Shown: piece by piece, positions 26,301 through 64,000 of the stretch
Position numbering within the stretch: the first letter of the stretch is position 1
Layout of the letters: each line of letters starts with the position of its first letter
DNA from: Terriglobia bacterium
Lineage (GTDB): Bacteria; Acidobacteriota; Terriglobia; JAJPHL01
NCBI GenBank assembly: GCA_021325275.1
Contig: JAJPHL010000055.1
Span: 1-64,000, forward strand
Length of the DNA: 64,000 nucleotides
Direction of reading: 5' to 3'
Made by a program: the position numbers and the translations under genes
Notes under the pieces: generated by a model
Database searches by the model: none
What the model saw: only the letters and a program-made list of their open reading frames with translations
What the model was told of the DNA's origin: nothing

Positions 26301-27744
26301 CTCTCCGCAGATTGTTACCGTAAAACTGCACGTGCTGCCTCCCGGCAGCAATCCGGGAGTTTTGGTGAGACCGACCGGACTCGTCTTTGCCGCGGCGGCC
26401 GGAACCTCGTCGCCGCCCCCCCAGACCGTGACGGTGGCGACGGCCGCCTCCGGCGCCAACGACTTCACCGCGGGTTCCTTGACGCGCACGGGCGGCAACT
26501 GGCTGAACGTGTCGTCAAGGGGTGAGTTCTCCATCGGCCAGCCGGGATCTCTAGTGGTCCAGCCAGTCCTGGGAAACTTGTCTCCCGGCGTGTATCAGGG
26601 AACGGTGGCCCTTTTGTTCGCCGATGGCAGCGCGCAAACCGTTGGCGTCACGTTTTTGGTCATCGGCGCAGCAGGCACTGGGAGCAGCCTGTCGCCGGAA
26701 GACACCGGGTGCGTACCGCAAAAGCTGTTTGCCGCGGACCGCAGTGTGGGCAGCAGTTTTTCTTCACCCGTCGGCTATCCGCGGACTCTGGAGGTCTATG
26801 TAGCGGACAACTGCGGCAACCCGTCAGGCAACGGGACGGTGATTGCGTCGTTCTCGAACGGCGATCCTCCGATTGTGCTGGTCAGTCTTCTCAATGGAAT
26901 CTACACCGCGACGTGGCAGCCGGGAACGGCCGCGGCTCAAGTGGTAATTACAGAAACCGCGAGTTCACCGGGCCTGGCGTCCGCGGTGCTGCAAGTTTCC
27001 GGTCAAGCGCCGGACAGTCCCTCGGCTCCCGCGATCAGCGCCGGAGGAGTGGTGAATGGCGCGAGCTTCGCGGGCGGCGCGCCGCTGGCGCCGGGCGGCA
27101 TCATCTCTTTGTTCGGGAAGAACCTGGCTGCGGGATCCGCCTCGGCCAGCCAATTGCCGTTGACAACGGCACTCGGCGGACTCAGTGCGAGCGTGGGCGG
27201 TGAAGACATGCCGTTGTTCTATTCAAGCAGCGGCCAGATCAACGCGCAACTGCCGGTCGACTTGCCGACAAACAGCAAATTGCAAGTGATCGTCAGGACC
27301 ACGGCGCAAGGTGCGGCGTCCATTGCCACCGTCCCTGAGACGATCAACGTGGGAAGCGCCGCGCCCGGTATTTTCACGGTGCTCTCTTCCGGCAAGGGAG
27401 ACGGAGTGATTCTGCACGCCGACAACACGCTTATCAACGCGGCCAATCCCGCCAAGGGTGGCGAGGAAGTGGTGATCTACTGCACCGGCTTGGGACCAAC
27501 CACTCCGTCATTCCCAAGCGGCACTCCGGCTACGGCGCCGAACGACACGGTGAACCCGGTGACCGTTACCATCGGCGGCCAGAACGCCGTCGTCGTGTAC
27601 AAAGGGCTTACGGCGGAATTGGTCGGACTCTATCAAATCAATGCGTATATTCCTGCGGGATTGTCGGGGAGCCAGCCGATTCAAGTCACAGTCGGACAGG
27701 GGAACTCAAGTCCCGCCGGCGTGACGATTTCCGTAGTGCCGTAG
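23323..27744 (+). CDS. Giant secreted NHL-repeat protein with BACON-like and TIGR03437 domains
   Basis: 1,473 residues. GTG 23323 has an excellent ribosome site (GGGGGGAG) and leads into a signal peptide (FALFAIAILLSGALAWG). About twelve NHL propeller blades follow (to residue about 685), several nearly identical, with a recurring VAGNGTSAFSGDGGPA and IYIADANNNRIRKI pattern. Next come three or four BACON-like beta domains (NWLSSSPGTGS, GTYSGQVTVRSQTTGE). The C-terminal 230 residues are the TIGR03437 domain (VVNGASFAGGAPLAPGGIIS to YQINAYIPAG). The family is an exported Solibacter speciality of unknown role; binding of carbohydrate or protein at the cell surface is a guess. Confidence 0.9.
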   Translation: MRTVRFALFAIAILLSGALAWGQGVITTVAGGNPWVFTGNRGPAINAPLGILTGIAVDSLGTIYAADNSNSLVVKITRDGALTIVGGGGQADPYSSNVPATSLPMAPNGVAVDATGNIYVADNFGLIRKISTAGIVTTVAGNGTSAFSGDGGPATSASLNSPAGVALDNAGNIYIADANNNRIRKINPSGIISTVAGNGTSAFSGDGGPAGSASLNNPTGVAVDPAGNVYIADAYNNRVRKVSAGIITTVAGGGQGGDGGPAASALINFVRGVTVDASGNLYIAAVNDSNVRKVNAGTISTVAGNGTAAYSGDGGLATAASLYYPYGVALDSSGNIYVADSNYSSGYIRQVSLTTGNITTLAGNGGYKFAGDLGPATGATLNHPGGVTVDASGNVYISDSYNNRIRKVGSSGIITTIAGNGLPNFSTGDPATSASLQQPAGVAVDAGGNLYVADRGNHRVRRVTNGSIFTAAGGGTGGDGVSATTAALNSPTAVAIDAAGNLYIADQYACRIRKVTNGIISTVAGTGDYGSSGDGGPAINAKLSNPSGVAVDSSGNIYISDYGNNRIRKVSPAGTITAFAGNGTSGYSGDGSPAVNAMLSNPQGVAVDVSGNVLIADGNGVVRKVTPAGIISTVAGGAPCCSPGDGGLAKNAWLSSPSAVAIDATGNIFIADSDTDLVREVLAAAPSLAVSPTTLGLAATSGSPGGTQQITVVSNALGVAWTGQAQSTGAWLSVSPSGTAPGAADVSADASNLGPGTYQGTVTIKAPLAVPSSQTVSVQLVVSAVMPARLTLQPSSFNFQTPAGAAGVQVQTLQVGNAGSGILQWTAFATTTSGGSWLTISVPSGSASSASPSMIQITAGSGSLAAGTYSGQVTVRSQTTGETNNIPVTLLISSGTRTLLLSQTALLFTGVQGGTIVPPQNFSVLNTGQGVLNWNAVNVIYSGGNWLSSSPGTGSTDAASLQIPQITVGANTTGMTAGDYTGIVSVSGSSANNSPQIVTVKLHVLPPGSNPGVLVRPTGLVFAAAAGTSSPPPQTVTVATAASGANDFTAGSLTRTGGNWLNVSSRGEFSIGQPGSLVVQPVLGNLSPGVYQGTVALLFADGSAQTVGVTFLVIGAAGTGSSLSPEDTGCVPQKLFAADRSVGSSFSSPVGYPRTLEVYVADNCGNPSGNGTVIASFSNGDPPIVLVSLLNGIYTATWQPGTAAAQVVITETASSPGLASAVLQVSGQAPDSPSAPAISAGGVVNGASFAGGAPLAPGGIISLFGKNLAAGSASASQLPLTTALGGLSASVGGEDMPLFYSSSGQINAQLPVDLPTNSKLQVIVRTTAQGAASIATVPETINVGSAAPGIFTVLSSGKGDGVILHADNTLINAANPAKGGEEVVIYCTGLGPTTPSFPSGTPATAPNDTVNPVTVTIGGQNAVVVYKGLTAELVGLYQINAYIPAGLSGSQPIQVTVGQGNSSPAGVTISVVP

Positions 27745-27752
27745 GCTCGCGG

Positions 27753-28667
27753 CTATGGTGTGCCGTTGCCGGTGGTCCGCCCGGCGCTTGGGTCGGATGA
27801 ATTAGCCGCGTTGAGATCGAGGTGAATGCCGCGCAAATCCGGCGCGTAACAATTGCCGTCGCGATTGTAGGTGGCCGCGCATGCGCCGCGCGCGAACTCC
27901 GGGCGTCGCGGCGACTGCGCGAATTGCCACACGGCAGCAAACGGCACGCCGCTCTCGGCGGGATCGCGCGGTTCCAGTACGCAACCCTTTGACGCCGAGC
28001 AAGCGTCGTTGGCAACCCAAAAGACGATGAGCCGCCCTTCGGCATGCGCGCGGATATCCACCGCGGTGACCACGTTCTCGTCGTCGCGCGCGGGAATGCC
28101 CGAGCAATAGACGCCGGCGCGATAATGCGCGGACGTCACAGCGTCGGCGAAAGCGTGAATGTAGGCGTGTTGCGCGGCGCTCATGCGTCCGCCTTCCTCG
28201 AGGTCGAGGAAAATCACCGCATTTTCCGGAAATCCTTCTTTACGCGCGGCGGCGACAGCGGCGGCGCCATCCTGCGTGCCCAGCTTCGCGGCGTCGCGAC
28301 GCAACGCCGCGGACGATCGCGCGTTGTACAGCAGAAGAAATCCGAAGCCCGCGGATTCGATTGTCGCGCGCTTGCCGGTCCAAGTATTGAAACGTTCGCC
28401 CGGCGGAAGTCCCAGCCAGTATCCAGTGAACGCGAAGTGTTTGCGCAGCGCGGGGAGTTTGTCGTCGCCGGGATAGATGTTTCTGTCGAAGCCGATATAA
28501 GCGCCGGCCTGAGCGTCGAGAACGGAAGGCAAAAGGCAAAAGGCAAAAGTCAAAAGGCAAAAATACGAAAGCAGAAAAACGAGCGTTCGTACCTTCCTTT
28601 TGCCTTTTGACTTTTGCCTTTTGCCTTTTGCCTTCTGCGGTGCCCGCACCCTATCCCCAAAGTTCAT
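27753..28667 (-). CDS. Secreted DUF1906 (glycoside hydrolase-like) protein with repeat-derived signal peptide
   Basis: 304 residues. After cleavage near DAQA the mature part reads YIGFDRNIYPGDDKLPALRK, GFGFLLLYNARS, AVIFLDLEEGG and YRAGVYCSGIPARD, the (beta/alpha)-barrel pattern of DUF1906/Rv2525c-like glycoside hydrolase-like domains. The ATG at 28667 overlaps the end of the DUF1501 gene by 17 bases. No other ATG, GTG or TTG in frame leaves a signal peptide. Residues 12-47 are encoded by a heptamer inverted repeat: one arm gives a lysine-rich n-region (KAKGKRQKSKGKR), the complementary arm gives the hydrophobic core (CLLTFAFCLLP). Enzymatic activity is not established for the family. Confidence 0.7.
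   Translation of the reverse strand: MNFGDRVRAPQKAKGKRQKSKGKRKVRTLVFLLSYFCLLTFAFCLLPSVLDAQAGAYIGFDRNIYPGDDKLPALRKHFAFTGYWLGLPPGERFNTWTGKRATIESAGFGFLLLYNARSSAALRRDAAKLGTQDGAAAVAAARKEGFPENAVIFLDLEEGGRMSAAQHAYIHAFADAVTSAHYRAGVYCSGIPARDDENVVTAVDIRAHAEGRLIVFWVANDACSASKGCVLEPRDPAESGVPFAAVWQFAQSPRRPEFARGACAATYNRDGNCYAPDLRGIHLDLNAANSSDPSAGRTTGNGTP
28524..28641. repeat. Inverted repeat with AAAGGCA heptamer arms
   Basis: Left arm (28524-28562) and right arm (28594-28637) share at least 37 bases as reverse complements, built from tandem AAAAGGC units with one GTC variant at the mirrored place. The inner loop is itself closed by TACGAA/TTCGTA (28564-28569 and 28586-28591). The whole would fold into one long hairpin. 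It lies within the 5' coding part of the DUF1906 gene. Confidence 0.85.
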
Positions 28668-30108
28668 TGATCGGCTGATACACGCCTTCGCTCGCGAACG
28701 GCACGTACTCGAAGCCGCGCCCGAACGGATCGTCGTAACGGATCGTGGTGTAGTTGATGCCCAGCGCCGAGTAGATCGTCGCCTCGATGTCTTCCGGTTT
28801 GATGATGCGTTGCGCCGACCATCCGTAGTTGATCGTGTTGGCGCCCAGCGCGTCGGTCGCGCCGATCACCGTGCCGCCCTTGATGCCGCCGCCGGCCATC
28901 AGCACGGTTTGCTGCACGTAGTGGTCGCGGCCCTTCGCGCCGGTCAGTTGTCCCGTGGTGCGTCCGAACTCGCCGGCGCATACGATCAGCGTTTCGTCCA
29001 GGATTCCCGCGTTTTGCAAATCGTCCATCAGCGCGGAGAGTCCGTTGTCGAACGTGATTCCCAAACAATTCGTGCTCAGCGGATTCAGGTTGGTCGCGCG
29101 ATCGGTGTTATCTTGGGTGCCGTAAATGCCGACGTGCATATCCCAGCCGCCTACGCTGATCTCGACGTAGCGCGTTCCTTGATTGGCCGCCAGAACTTGC
29201 CCGGCTACCAGACACGCGTTGCCGAAGGCCGTACTGCCATACTTTTGCGAATTCGCCGCGCTGTACTGGAACGCCGTATTCACCACGGGATTGTATTCCA
29301 GCTGCGTCGCCGCCGTGTAGAAGTTGCCCATGTCCTGCATCGGCGTTCCGTACGGCGAGTTGTTGCGGAGCGCGCCATCCACCGTCAACAATTCGCTGTA
29401 ACGCTGGTTCGACACCGTTTGCCCGCTGACGTTAGTGGTATTGGCGATGCCCGTGGTGTTGGCGTTGCCGTTTCCCGCTTCCGAAATTTTGAACGGCGCG
29501 TACGTCGCCGCGAAGTAGCCGTTGCCCACTTGCGACGCCGCGTTGTTGGCGTTCAAGGAAAGGAACGTCGGGAAGACTTGCCCGGGTTGCCTTTCCGGAT
29601 TCTTCTCGATCGCCACCACGCTTCCGATATTCGGCGCAATGTTGCCGAGCGCGGCCGCGGGATTGCGTCCAATTTGCGTCCAGGTTTGCGCCAGCGTGTG
29701 CACCAGCGCCCACGCTTGCATCGACCGCACCAGCGCGATGTTGTTCAAGCGCTGCGAAAGTTTCGGCATCAGCCCCACCGGCCAATTGATGCCGTTGAAC
29801 ATCGTGGGATTGAAGCTCGTCGGCGTGGTGCCGTTGATCACCTTCAAGTCGAACAGGTCGGTGTGGCTCGGCGCGCCGGCCATCAAAACGAAGACCACGT
29901 TTTTGGCGGTGTTCTTCAGCGTCACCGGTTGCGTGACGATTTTCACGCCGCCGCTGGCATGCACAAACGGACCCAGGCAACCCATGGTGACGCCTGCGCC
30001 GGCCAGTTCGAAGAACGTGCGGCGAGAAATGTGCGGCCGCTCGAAGCAGTTCTTGTGCGGATGCGGGAACCGCTCGACGAAACGATCGAATTTTTCTTGT
30101 TGGTTCAT
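28651..30108 (-). CDS. Tat-exported DUF1501 protein
   Basis: 485 residues. ATG 30108 has a strong ribosome site (AAGGAG, 7 bases away). The N-terminus holds a twin-arginine motif (HISRRTFFELAGAG) before a hydrophobic stretch. The body has the DUF1501 features: FVLMAGAPSHTDLFDLK, ALVRSMQAW, VVCAGEFGRTTG-like VCAGEFGRTTGQLTG and DHYVQQTVLMAGGGIKGG. DUF1501 proteins are sulfatase-like and are almost always encoded beside a DUF1549/DUF1553 protein, as here, with 23 bases between the two. Their role is unresolved; degradation of complex extracellular material has been proposed. Confidence 0.88.
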   Translation of the reverse strand: MNQQEKFDRFVERFPHPHKNCFERPHISRRTFFELAGAGVTMGCLGPFVHASGGVKIVTQPVTLKNTAKNVVFVLMAGAPSHTDLFDLKVINGTTPTSFNPTMFNGINWPVGLMPKLSQRLNNIALVRSMQAWALVHTLAQTWTQIGRNPAAALGNIAPNIGSVVAIEKNPERQPGQVFPTFLSLNANNAASQVGNGYFAATYAPFKISEAGNGNANTTGIANTTNVSGQTVSNQRYSELLTVDGALRNNSPYGTPMQDMGNFYTAATQLEYNPVVNTAFQYSAANSQKYGSTAFGNACLVAGQVLAANQGTRYVEISVGGWDMHVGIYGTQDNTDRATNLNPLSTNCLGITFDNGLSALMDDLQNAGILDETLIVCAGEFGRTTGQLTGAKGRDHYVQQTVLMAGGGIKGGTVIGATDALGANTINYGWSAQRIIKPEDIEATIYSALGINYTTIRYDDPFGRGFEYVPFASEGVYQPINELWG

Positions 30109-30131: not shown

Positions 30132-32138
30132 CTAGTAATTGAAAATGAAATCGACCTTGTTGTACAGCGTCCACAGCAAGTTCACGGCTTCGGTGTTGTG
30201 ATTCGTGTTCAGATTCGCCGCCGCCAGATTCATTTCCGTGGTTGACGGATAGCGCGACAACACCGTGAGATACAAATTCGTGATCAACTGCGAGTTCGGC
30301 AGCGTCATGTTCTGCTGCAACAAGCTCGCCGTGGTACCCGATCCCGTGGCCGCCACGCGCCCCATCACGACGCTTGAGTTCATCAAGTCGAGCGCTTGCG
30401 TCGCGGAGGAATCGCCGGAACGGAAAACGTTCAAGCGGTTGCCGCGCAGGAAATCGTCGAGGAACGATGCTTCCCCGCCCGTTCCGTTGGTATCCGGATA
30501 CTGCATCGCGTAGGCGAAGGGACCAAGCGCGTACGGCTGGCCGTTGTTCAAGGTGTACGAGCTGGGAATGTTGCTGGTTTGCACGATCGCATCGCGTATT
30601 TCCTCGGCCGTCAAGCGGCGCACAAGTTTCCGCGCGAAAAGCGGCTCCCACGCCTCGTTCCAAGTGCCGTTGTAGCGCGACGACAATTGATACGTTTGCG
30701 AATTTGTGATTTCCCGCATGAGCGCCCGCAGGTCGTAGCCGCTGTCGATGAAGTCCCGCGCCAGCGCGTTCAACAATTGCGGATTGCTCGGCTGCAAGGT
30801 CCACGGCGACGGCGGCGGATTGTACGGGTCGAGTCTGGCGAGATCGAAGGTATCGGGCGGATCGACAATGCCCATGCTGAACAACTCGGCCCAAATGTAA
30901 TTCACCGTGGCGCGAGCGAATTGGAAATCGCCGGTGACCATTTGGCTCATCGCCGTGCGGTAATCCATGCCCGCGGGCGGCGCCGTGTTGGTGAAGAAAT
31001 AGTTCGGCGCGATCGTCGCGGCGTTGTTCGGCGTCGCCGAAGGCTGGCGCGCCGGACGATTGCCGGTGGTGGTGTTGAGCGAGTAGCTTCCCGTTGTCGC
31101 GCTCGACACGTACATGGGCGTCTCGTTGTTGACCGGCGTGCTCTCACCGCCCCAAGTGGTCCGCGCCATGAACGCCGCAAATCCCCACGCTTGATAGCGC
31201 TGTTGCTGGCCGCCCCACAAACTGATCGACGTCAAGTGGCCGGCCCCGTTGTGGCACAGCAGGCAATTCACGTACTGGATTCCCAGGAACGTGTCGGCCA
31301 CGTCGGCGGCCATTTGATCGTAGGTATCCTGCCGGGGAATTCCCGCGCCGTTTTGCACGCCGCCCAGCAACCAATTCAGCTCACCCTTGGTGAAGTTTGA
31401 TTCGCTCGCGGCGGTAGCGTTCGCGCTGGCCTGGGAGATGATGTCCGCGGCCATTTGATTGTACGGCGTGTTATTGGTGAGATTCGTCTTGATGAAATTG
31501 TAGAAGGCGTTGCGTCCCTGATTCCCGCGCTGGGTGCCTTGCGACGTGGTCGTCGTATTCAGGTACATGTCGCCGAAGTACATGGTCCACTTGTCCACCC
31601 ATTGCGGCGACGCCAGCAATGTATCGATGTAGATCGCGCGCTTGTCCGGCCTCTGGTCGCTCAGGAACAACGCCAACGCCTGTGTAGTAGGAACGCGGCC
31701 GGTGAGATCGAGCGTTACGCGGCGGAAAAACTCCTGATCCGTCGTGGGCGGCGCGGGGGCGACGCCGGCTTGCGCCAGGGCCTGGAAAATGTTGCGGTCG
31801 ATGGTGCCCATGTTCGACGTGTCCACCGTATTGCTGGTGTTTCCGCCGTTCGGCGCGAAGCTGGCTGCGGTCTTTGTCGATCCCTGAGCCGATCCCGATG
31901 AATCCGCTTGCGCCATCCGCATGCGCGTCACTTGCTCGGTCAACCGGCTCCGCACACCGGCCATCGTCAGCGACTTCTGGCGCTGCGCTTCGGTGAAGTA
32001 GCTGCACTCGGCGTGCTCAGTGACTGTCGCGCCGCTGTGCAATCCGTCGGTTGTCTTTTGCGCGTATGCCGCCGGTGAACTGGCGACGAGAAAAAGTGCA
32101 GGTATCGCGAGGGAAAAAGCGGCGCGTTGACAAGACAT
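30132..32138 (-). CDS. Secreted DUF1549/DUF1553-type protein with a c-type haem motif
   Basis: 668 residues with a Sec signal peptide ending near PAAYAQ. The DUF1549 part is clear (FFRRVTLDLTGRVPTTQALA, then YIDTLLASPQWVDKWTMYFG), followed by a DUF1553-like C-terminal half (DFIDSGYDLRALMREITNSQ, RRLTAEEIRDAI). A single CxxCH motif (CLLCH, residues 292-296) would bind haem covalently in the periplasm. It heads the operon with the DUF1501 gene. The upstream 268 bases (32139-32406) are non-coding and should hold promoters for this gene and the divergent TIGR03437 gene. Confidence 0.85.
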   Translation of the reverse strand: MSCQRAAFSLAIPALFLVASSPAAYAQKTTDGLHSGATVTEHAECSYFTEAQRQKSLTMAGVRSRLTEQVTRMRMAQADSSGSAQGSTKTAASFAPNGGNTSNTVDTSNMGTIDRNIFQALAQAGVAPAPPTTDQEFFRRVTLDLTGRVPTTQALALFLSDQRPDKRAIYIDTLLASPQWVDKWTMYFGDMYLNTTTTSQGTQRGNQGRNAFYNFIKTNLTNNTPYNQMAADIISQASANATAASESNFTKGELNWLLGGVQNGAGIPRQDTYDQMAADVADTFLGIQYVNCLLCHNGAGHLTSISLWGGQQQRYQAWGFAAFMARTTWGGESTPVNNETPMYVSSATTGSYSLNTTTGNRPARQPSATPNNAATIAPNYFFTNTAPPAGMDYRTAMSQMVTGDFQFARATVNYIWAELFSMGIVDPPDTFDLARLDPYNPPPSPWTLQPSNPQLLNALARDFIDSGYDLRALMREITNSQTYQLSSRYNGTWNEAWEPLFARKLVRRLTAEEIRDAIVQTSNIPSSYTLNNGQPYALGPFAYAMQYPDTNGTGGEASFLDDFLRGNRLNVFRSGDSSATQALDLMNSSVVMGRVAATGSGTTASLLQQNMTLPNSQLITNLYLTVLSRYPSTTEMNLAAANLNTNHNTEAVNLLWTLYNKVDFIFNY

Positions 32139-34311: not shown

Positions 34312-35231
34312 TTCGGAAAAAGAAACTTCAGCGCATCGGGCAATCGTTTTGCCCACCACGATTCGGAATGCATGCCGCCTTCTTGCACCACGACCTTTAG
34401 ATGGCGATCGTCGAGGCCCGCTTTCCGAAGAATCTCCGCAAGCCTGGCGACGTCTTCCACCGGCTCGCCACGCGACGTTCCCACTCCGATGAAAATGCGG
34501 CGCGGCCATTCCCGCACCGTCGCGGCGTCTTTCAACAAGTGATAGTCGGAGGCATACACCGAAGGACTCTCGATCAGCAATCCGGCGAACGCGCCGGGCT
34601 GCGCGATGGCCGCATAGATCGCCGCTCCCGCACCGTACGACGATCCGCCGAGCACGCGATTTCCCGCTCCGCCGCGCACGCGATAATGGTCCTCGATAAA
34701 CGGAACTACTTCGCTCATCAAAAATTGCGGATACTTCTTCCCCTGCGGATCGGGAATGGCGGGTGAAAACGTAGAGTCGGGATACGGCAGATACTCGTTG
34801 GCGCGCTGGCGGCTGTCGCCCGAATCGATGCCCACCACGATGATCGGCGGAATCGCGCGCGCGGCGACCAACTGCTCCACCGTTTCGTCGACCCGCCATT
34901 CTTCGCCGCGCGACGAAGTGCAAACGTCGAAGAGGTTTTGTCCGTCGTTGAGATAAAGCACAGGAAAGCGTTGTCGCGCGTTCATCGGGAGGCGATAGCC
35001 CGGCGGGAGCAACACGCGCAGCATGCGCGTGTTGCCGAATACTTTGCTGTCAAACTTCACGATGTCCAGCGATCCGGTGACGGTGGATTCGCAGGATTGC
35101 GCGCCGCTCCATAAGGGAAGCGCGACGCCCAGGCAGGTGACCCACAGAGCGCACAGAGAACTCAGAGAACACAGAGAGAATCTCCGTTCATTTTTGCCTT
35201 TTGCCTCTTGCCCTTTGCCTTTTGCCTTCAC
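34308..35231 (-). CDS. Secreted esterase (Fes/EstD-type alpha/beta hydrolase) with repeat-derived signal peptide
   Basis: About 307 residues. The catalytic domain is a PF00756-type esterase: FPVLYLNDGQNLFD, nucleophile elbow VLGGSSYGAGAA, and a C-terminal His in EGGMHSESWW. Substrates in the family range from enterochelin to acyl esters. The frame is open to an ATG at 35330, only 7 bases from the divergent gene. The GTG at 35231 is preferred since it gives a textbook signal peptide and leaves room for promoters. The lysine-rich start (KAKGKGQEAKGKNERR) and hydrophobic core (FSLCSLSSLCALW) are both encoded by intergenic repeat sequence. Confidence 0.75.
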   Translation of the reverse strand: MKAKGKGQEAKGKNERRFSLCSLSSLCALWVTCLGVALPLWSGAQSCESTVTGSLDIVKFDSKVFGNTRMLRVLLPPGYRLPMNARQRFPVLYLNDGQNLFDVCTSSRGEEWRVDETVEQLVAARAIPPIIVVGIDSGDSRQRANEYLPYPDSTFSPAIPDPQGKKYPQFLMSEVVPFIEDHYRVRGGAGNRVLGGSSYGAGAAIYAAIAQPGAFAGLLIESPSVYASDYHLLKDAATVREWPRRIFIGVGTSRGEPVEDVARLAEILRKAGLDDRHLKVVVQEGGMHSESWWAKRLPDALKFLFPN

Positions 35232-35270
35232 GGTTTTGTTTTTCTCTGTGCGCTCTGCGCGCTCTGTGAT
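35142..35270. repeat. Composite inverted repeat with CACAGAG arms and a heptamer centre
   Basis: The outer arms are CACAGAGCGCACAGAG-like at 35142-35180 and its inverted counterpart CTCTGTGCGCTCTG-like at 35239-35270. Between them lies a single arm of the TTTTGCC heptamer repeat (35190-35228), as in the element at 28524. It overlaps the start of the esterase gene and fills most of the space to the divergent oxidoreductase gene. Confidence 0.75.
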
Positions 35271-63820: not shown

Positions 63821-63920
63821 AAAACAGAGCACACAGAGAACTCAGAGAGCACAGAGAAATGCAAAAACCTTGGGCTTTGTTTTTCTCTGTGTGCTCCGTG
63901 TCCTCTGTGTGCTCGGTGTT
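63821..63920. repeat. Inverted repeat with CACAGAG arms
   Basis: Arms at 63821-63866 (ACAGAGCACACAGAG period) and 63875-63920 (CTCTGTGTGCTC period) are imperfect reverse complements around a short loop. It sits between two converging genes, where it could stop transcription from both sides, and belongs to the same class as the arms at 35142-35270. Confidence 0.75.
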
Positions 63921-64000
63921 AGATTGCCAGCACTCGGGCGACTTCCTCGACAACCAACTGCACATCTTGCTCTGTGGTTTGCCAGCTTGACGCGCTCACG
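63919..64000 (-). CDS. C-terminal end of a probable PLP-dependent decarboxylase/aminotransferase (cut by window edge)
   Basis: Only the last 26 codons are visible, reading VSASSWQTTEQDV and ending EVARVLAI before TAA at 63921-63919. The S-x-SSW-x-TTEEDV pattern closes many group II pyridoxal-dependent decarboxylases and related class V-like enzymes. The identification rests on this short tail alone. Confidence 0.5.
   Translation of the reverse strand, partial: VSASSWQTTEQDVQLVVEEVARVLAI

Follow-up and report, generated by a model that had tools for sequence, protein, structure and literature searches.

Among described repeats, the nearest parallel to the element reported here is YPAL/RU-2, a miniature inverted-repeat transposable element (MITE) of Yersinia that was found in silico to form part of one predicted signal peptide, in YPO1552 (Delihas 2007, PMC2759123, PMC2229807). 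Homologues of that Yersinia protein also have signal peptides (PMC2759123). Three other systems share features with the present element: the Rickettsia palindromic elements (RPE), which lie in frame within conserved protein genes (Ogata 2000 via PMC2229807); repetitive extragenic palindromic (REP) sequences and bacterial interspersed mosaic elements (BIME) with RAYT transposases, which are short, dispersed intergenic palindromes (PMC3733652); and the TAACTGA repeats of Beggiatoaceae, which are abundant intergenic heptanucleotides (PMC4679880). In the open-licence literature, we found no report earlier than this work, beyond Delihas 2007, on palindromes built of heptamers in Acidobacteria or on signal-peptide repeats that are independent of frame. 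The element described here is a palindrome of AAAAGGC heptamers in a 64,000-nt stretch of Terriglobia bacterium contig JAJPHL010000055.1 (GCA_021325275.1; the whole stretch is referred to as the window), where it lies in the 5' end of a gene of family PF08924 (Rv2525c_GlyHyd-like, formerly DUF1906; 27753 to 28667, minus strand). We consider it probable (roughly 0.75) that this palindromic element landed in the signal peptide of an already exported protein, which would be translated through it and still be exported and cleaved.

The inverted repeat occupies window positions 28525 to 28635 and consists of two 38-nt arms (28525 to 28562 and 28598 to 28635) that are 100% complementary, are spaced 35 nt apart and each contain one AAAAGTC variant unit, in corresponding positions. 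The calculated fold of the RNA strand has an energy of -73.6 kcal/mol, compared with -29.9 kcal/mol for shuffles (z = -12). The open reading frame, whose product matches PF08924 with an E value of 1.2e-11 and 45.6 bits against a cut-off of 27.2, runs through the hairpin as MNFGDRVRAPQKAKGKRQKSKGKRKVRTLVFLLSYFCLLTFAFCLLPSVLDAQA, followed by GAYIGFDRN. On the minus strand, as read in the gene, the arm of AAAAGGC units (A-arm; 28598 to 28635) encodes the Lys/Arg-rich n-region QKAKGKRQKSKGK; the loop (28563 to 28597) contributes RKVRTLVFLLSY, in which the n-region ends and the hydrophobic core starts with LVFLLSY; and the arm of GCCTTTT units (T-arm; 28525 to 28562) encodes the remainder of the core, FCLLTFAFCLLP. 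The c-region DAQA (28506 to 28517), with Ala at both -3 and -1, is host-gene sequence outside the repeat, and the predicted mature protein begins at 28505. With an n-region charge of up to +11 and a best 12-mer of 2.38 on the Kyte-Doolittle scale, the predicted leader follows the Sec pattern of a basic n-region, a hydrophobic core and small -3/-1 residues before the mature domain. An earlier note on this DNA had proposed that one arm gives the n-region and the complementary arm the hydrophobic core; this holds here and recurs elsewhere.

Reading frames across all retrieved copies of the repeat revealed such repeat-built leaders in 8 genes of this genome and 11 in other Acidobacteriota. Besides the window gene, the eighth of its genome, these are a weakly caspase-like gene (L095), a TPM-domain gene (L097), a GH116 gene (L110), two neighbours at L121 (the first barrel-like by inspection, with no Pfam match, and the second LolA_like), a single-arm case (L123) and a pectinesterase (L156). 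In the other Acidobacteriota they comprise a solute-binding protein (L210, lipobox LTAC), a cytochrome c (L211, SAAC), a VWA protein (L213), two FG-GAP proteins (L215, and L224 with lipobox PLGC), a further lipobox protein (L216, FAAC), a ThuA protein (L222) and the genes at L130, L137, L150 and L227. In the fused genes the cleavage-site residues or lipobox Cys lie outside the repeat, the Cys of L210, L211, L216 and L224 being 3' of it, and at L110, L121, L123, L156, L137, L210, L213 and L224 the start codon falls on or adjoins the preceding stop (TAATG, TGATG, ATGA or GTGA).

The capacity of the element to encode a leader follows from its unit length and its symmetry. Because 7 is not a multiple of 3, an array yields the same heptapeptide in each frame: AAAAGGC arrays give KRQKAKG in all frames and GCCTTTT arrays give AFCLLPF. 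The A-arm always comes first in the palindrome, so both strands read basic and then hydrophobic. The AAAAGTC variant introduces a TGA in one frame per strand. The 19 natural hairpins examined offered 114 frames, 66 (58%) of them without stops. In 42 of these 114 frames a hydrophobic 12-mer came after a basic stretch, compared with 0.3% of shuffled-hairpin frames and 3/114 when the arms were swapped. When all heptamer classes were held to fixed per-unit limits of charge and hydropathy, 16 of 2,340 (8 complementary pairs) passed.

The hairpin belongs to a dispersed family. In a scan of the 6.86-Mb genome, GCAAAAGGCAAAAG occurred 182 times and its reversed control once, and the hairpin order GGCAAAA..TTTTGCC gave 64 matches per strand versus 2 for the opposite order. 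Retrieval site by site yielded about 25 hairpins plus a dozen single arms or long arrays, an enumeration that may miss degenerate copies. Five contigs of this assembly (L100, L114, L115, L124 and L125) have an end within or next to a long AAAAGGC tandem array, so the true lengths of arrays and number of copies are higher than counted here. The arms share the consensus GAAGGCAAAAGGCAAAAGGCAAAAGTCAAAAGGCAAAAG across loci while the loops vary; thus, as with RPE and YPAL, many dispersed palindromic copies have one consensus, and some lie in frame inside genes of conserved families. Most copies are intergenic, in short gaps and often 30 to 60 nt behind a stop codon, with convergent and divergent gaps also represented. 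A check for MITE features found sharp copy ends and no evident target-site duplication. Elsewhere the hairpin is patchy, being present in 2/61 genomes of a set of relatives and in 14/396 of a phylum-wide sample, the own genome included in both. We rejected RAYT-driven REP mobility, as none of the five Y1_Tnp loci located and inspected in the genome was flanked by heptamer arrays. At L103 (1478 to 1905), two arms about 400 nt apart flank a gene for a 23S rRNA intervening-sequence protein (PF05635) in a cargo-like arrangement.

Orthologues indicate what preceded the repeat. The earlier note had suggested comparing DUF1906 orthologues, and in that comparison the mature domain aligned and the leader was replaced. 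A hydrophobic 12-mer above a fixed threshold stood just before the mature domain in 42/44 distinct orthologues of the window protein, and such a 12-mer was present in 16/23 distinct LolA-like and 22/24 distinct TPM-domain orthologues. Within 250 nt upstream, no orthologue among these 44, 23 and 24 had more than one heptamer. Since orthologues have an ordinary hydrophobic leader without the repeat, the proteins were probably exported already, and the repeat would have invaded or replaced the n- and h-regions. The proposal that a non-coding repeat became an export signal is therefore supported in part: the repeat reads as the n-region and most of the core of the signal peptide, but export would have existed before it. 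The LolA_like gene at L121, which follows a permease gene, preserves the start codon as well. All 21 syntenic orthologues in which the start could be scored begin with an ATG that overlaps the permease stop identically (stop at +5), and this genome retains the ATG at this ancestral position in matching context (aggcattggaatATGaat). Codon 6 lies on one side of the hairpin and the c-region LAQDAR on the other (MNEANA, the repeat and then LLLSGSRCLAQDAR, compared with MNRLIALALLAAPLMAQNAR in an orthologue), and the leader exceeds those of the orthologues by about 30 residues, near the length of the hairpin. The conserved ATG is 5' of the hairpin, so the start lies upstream of it and the frame is real. 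In two DUF1906 orthologues (L081 and L065), the leader runs through CTCTGTG-type repeats (VLCVLRALCALCVKFL and RLCALCGSCILML, respectively), possibly a parallel case.

Fusions were also selective for export. Among genes starting within about 40 nt of a copy, secreted neighbours either were fused or had their own leader downstream of the copy. The 17 non-exported (cytosolic or membrane) neighbours begin 3' of the hairpin, often just past its TGA; they include T2SSE ATPase, biotin carboxylase, M24 peptidase, TruB, TldD and FtsX and, by inspection, IspD, TsaD, an ABC ATPase, Icd, QueF, PriA and others. Scored as fused/unfused, the counts were 19/4 for exported and 0/17 for non-exported genes (Fisher p = 7e-8), and 12/4 versus 0/17 (p = 5e-6) when only fusions with independent export evidence were kept; counting MurQ as a cytosolic fusion in this stricter set gave p = 5e-5. 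These p values are indicative only, because the table was compiled manually, using reading frames, Pfam and N-termini, and because the copies do not count as independent draws.

Taken together, the data are consistent with a route in which an AAAAGGC(n)-loop-GCCTTTT(n) element entered the 5' end of a gene at a point that follows the start codon and precedes the signal-peptidase site. Translation through the element would convert the A-arm into a strongly basic n-region and the loop and T-arm into a hydrophobic core, and with the host c-region DAQA retained, the protein would presumably still be sent via Sec and cleaved. At the window site we infer insertion rather than gradual replacement. Signal peptides could then act as a safe harbour, where most open-frame insertions leave a workable signal; they would tolerate the element because it supplies n- and h-regions in nearly any open frame. 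We give about even odds to the broader proposal that the mobile palindrome is a frame- and strand-independent portable signal-peptide module that recurrently rewrites export signals, those of lipoproteins included, across Acidobacteriota, and that may be kept because only there is it functionally silent or even useful.

Several points weigh against these proposals. The signal-peptide calls use charge, hydropathy and the -3/-1 rules only, and the same-family genome set for an empty-site comparison of the window gene consisted of this genome alone. A hairpin of -74 kcal/mol so close to the start could lower translation. The secreted neighbours at L104, L099, L138 and L217 retain their own signal peptides downstream, and MurQ (L101) may be a non-exported protein that has a K-rich arm. 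In this MurQ-like SIS gene (L101, 841 to 1716, minus strand), one single K-rich arm follows the canonical starts and would add a basic stretch, with no hydrophobic core, to the N-terminus. The window gene itself has two possible starts. The ATG at 28667 overlaps the stop codon (TAG, 28653 to 28651) of the upstream, co-directional DUF1501 gene (PF07394; 28651 to 30108, minus strand), a stop that lies about 15 nt before the hairpin, while an in-frame GTG at 28649, one base past that stop and closely preceded by GGGGA, is equally good. For this reason the gene overlap described in the earlier note is plausible through the ATG, yet not certain. With either start the n-region is basic. Past the A-arm, the sole canonical in-frame start codons are TTGs within the T-arm, from which no n-region would be left.

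Three other explanations were considered. The main role of the repeat could lie at the RNA level, as a 3'-end stabilizer, attenuator or bidirectional terminator, with coding use a tolerated side effect. The very stable stem and the position of copies in short gaps, often close behind stops and also between convergent genes, fit such a role, but copies occupy divergent gaps too, a simple scan of 27700 to 29200 for intrinsic terminators (a G+C-rich stem followed by a U run) returned 0 sites, and Rfam gave the hairpin no family at the gathering score, only generic hairpin matches below threshold. We hold this as a tentative possibility; an RNA role is compatible with the element serving as a signal peptide, and both may be true. 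That the n- and h-regions arose within existing signal peptides by slippage of tandem repeats or by replacement, rather than by insertion of a mobile element, seems doubtful to us. The single-arm case at L123, the long tandem arrays and the lack of a clear target-site duplication would suit it, whereas the AAAAGTC units matched in both arms and the arm consensus shared across loci suggest copying of a unit, and the extra length of the LolA_like leader is close to that of the hairpin. Finally, it is quite improbable that the open frame is an accident of a stop-poor, intergenic REP-like repeat, with the window gene decaying or its protein starting downstream without a signal peptide (a start we rejected on the orthologue leaders and the LolA_like start codon): stop-free frames are indeed common and copies mostly intergenic and close behind stop codons, but the downstream TTG codons come too late, nearly all orthologues have a hydrophobic leader, the sibling's conserved ATG is upstream of its hairpin, and in many other fusions the start is coupled and the c-region or lipobox is correct.

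Upstream of the DUF1501 gene lies a DUF1549/DUF1553 gene (30132 to 32138, minus strand). The window also contains a second palindrome family, CACAGAG..CTCTGTG, at 35143 to 35268 and 63832 to 63976, and the former copy encloses a single AAAAGGC-family T-arm. At L154 (1500 to 1850), CACAGAG and AAAAGGC arms alternate in a composite repeat that also holds a duplicated ATATACCGCACTGxCCGGCGATTGTTACCACCGAGATCACAGAG segment.

The element offers a concrete natural case of non-coding repeats entering proteins, one in which, owing to unit length and complementarity, almost every insertion into a signal peptide that leaves the frame open would be acceptable. With it, the long-standing view that nearly any sequence combining basic and hydrophobic parts is tolerated in a signal peptide becomes open to test, and annotation pipelines may mis-call starts at AAAAGGC-type repeats. 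If the element does spread through signal-peptide safe harbours, repeat sequence, codon structure and insertion-site survival would be linked in one measurable system. Its differences from the known systems are as follows. REP and BIME stems are not built of heptamers as this one is, and the Y1_Tnp genes of this genome stand apart from the arrays. The Beggiatoaceae TAACTGA repeats are direct repeats and are not described as coding in the abstract of that report (PMC4679880). RPE lie in frame in many kinds of protein genes (PMC2229807), whereas here the insert lies in the signal peptide and would supply its working parts. YPAL involves one main locus, one frame and a hydrophobic cluster of a 168-bp unit; the present element is a heptamer repeat that is frame independent, divides the n- and h-regions between two complementary arms and recurs in conserved secreted enzymes and lipoproteins.
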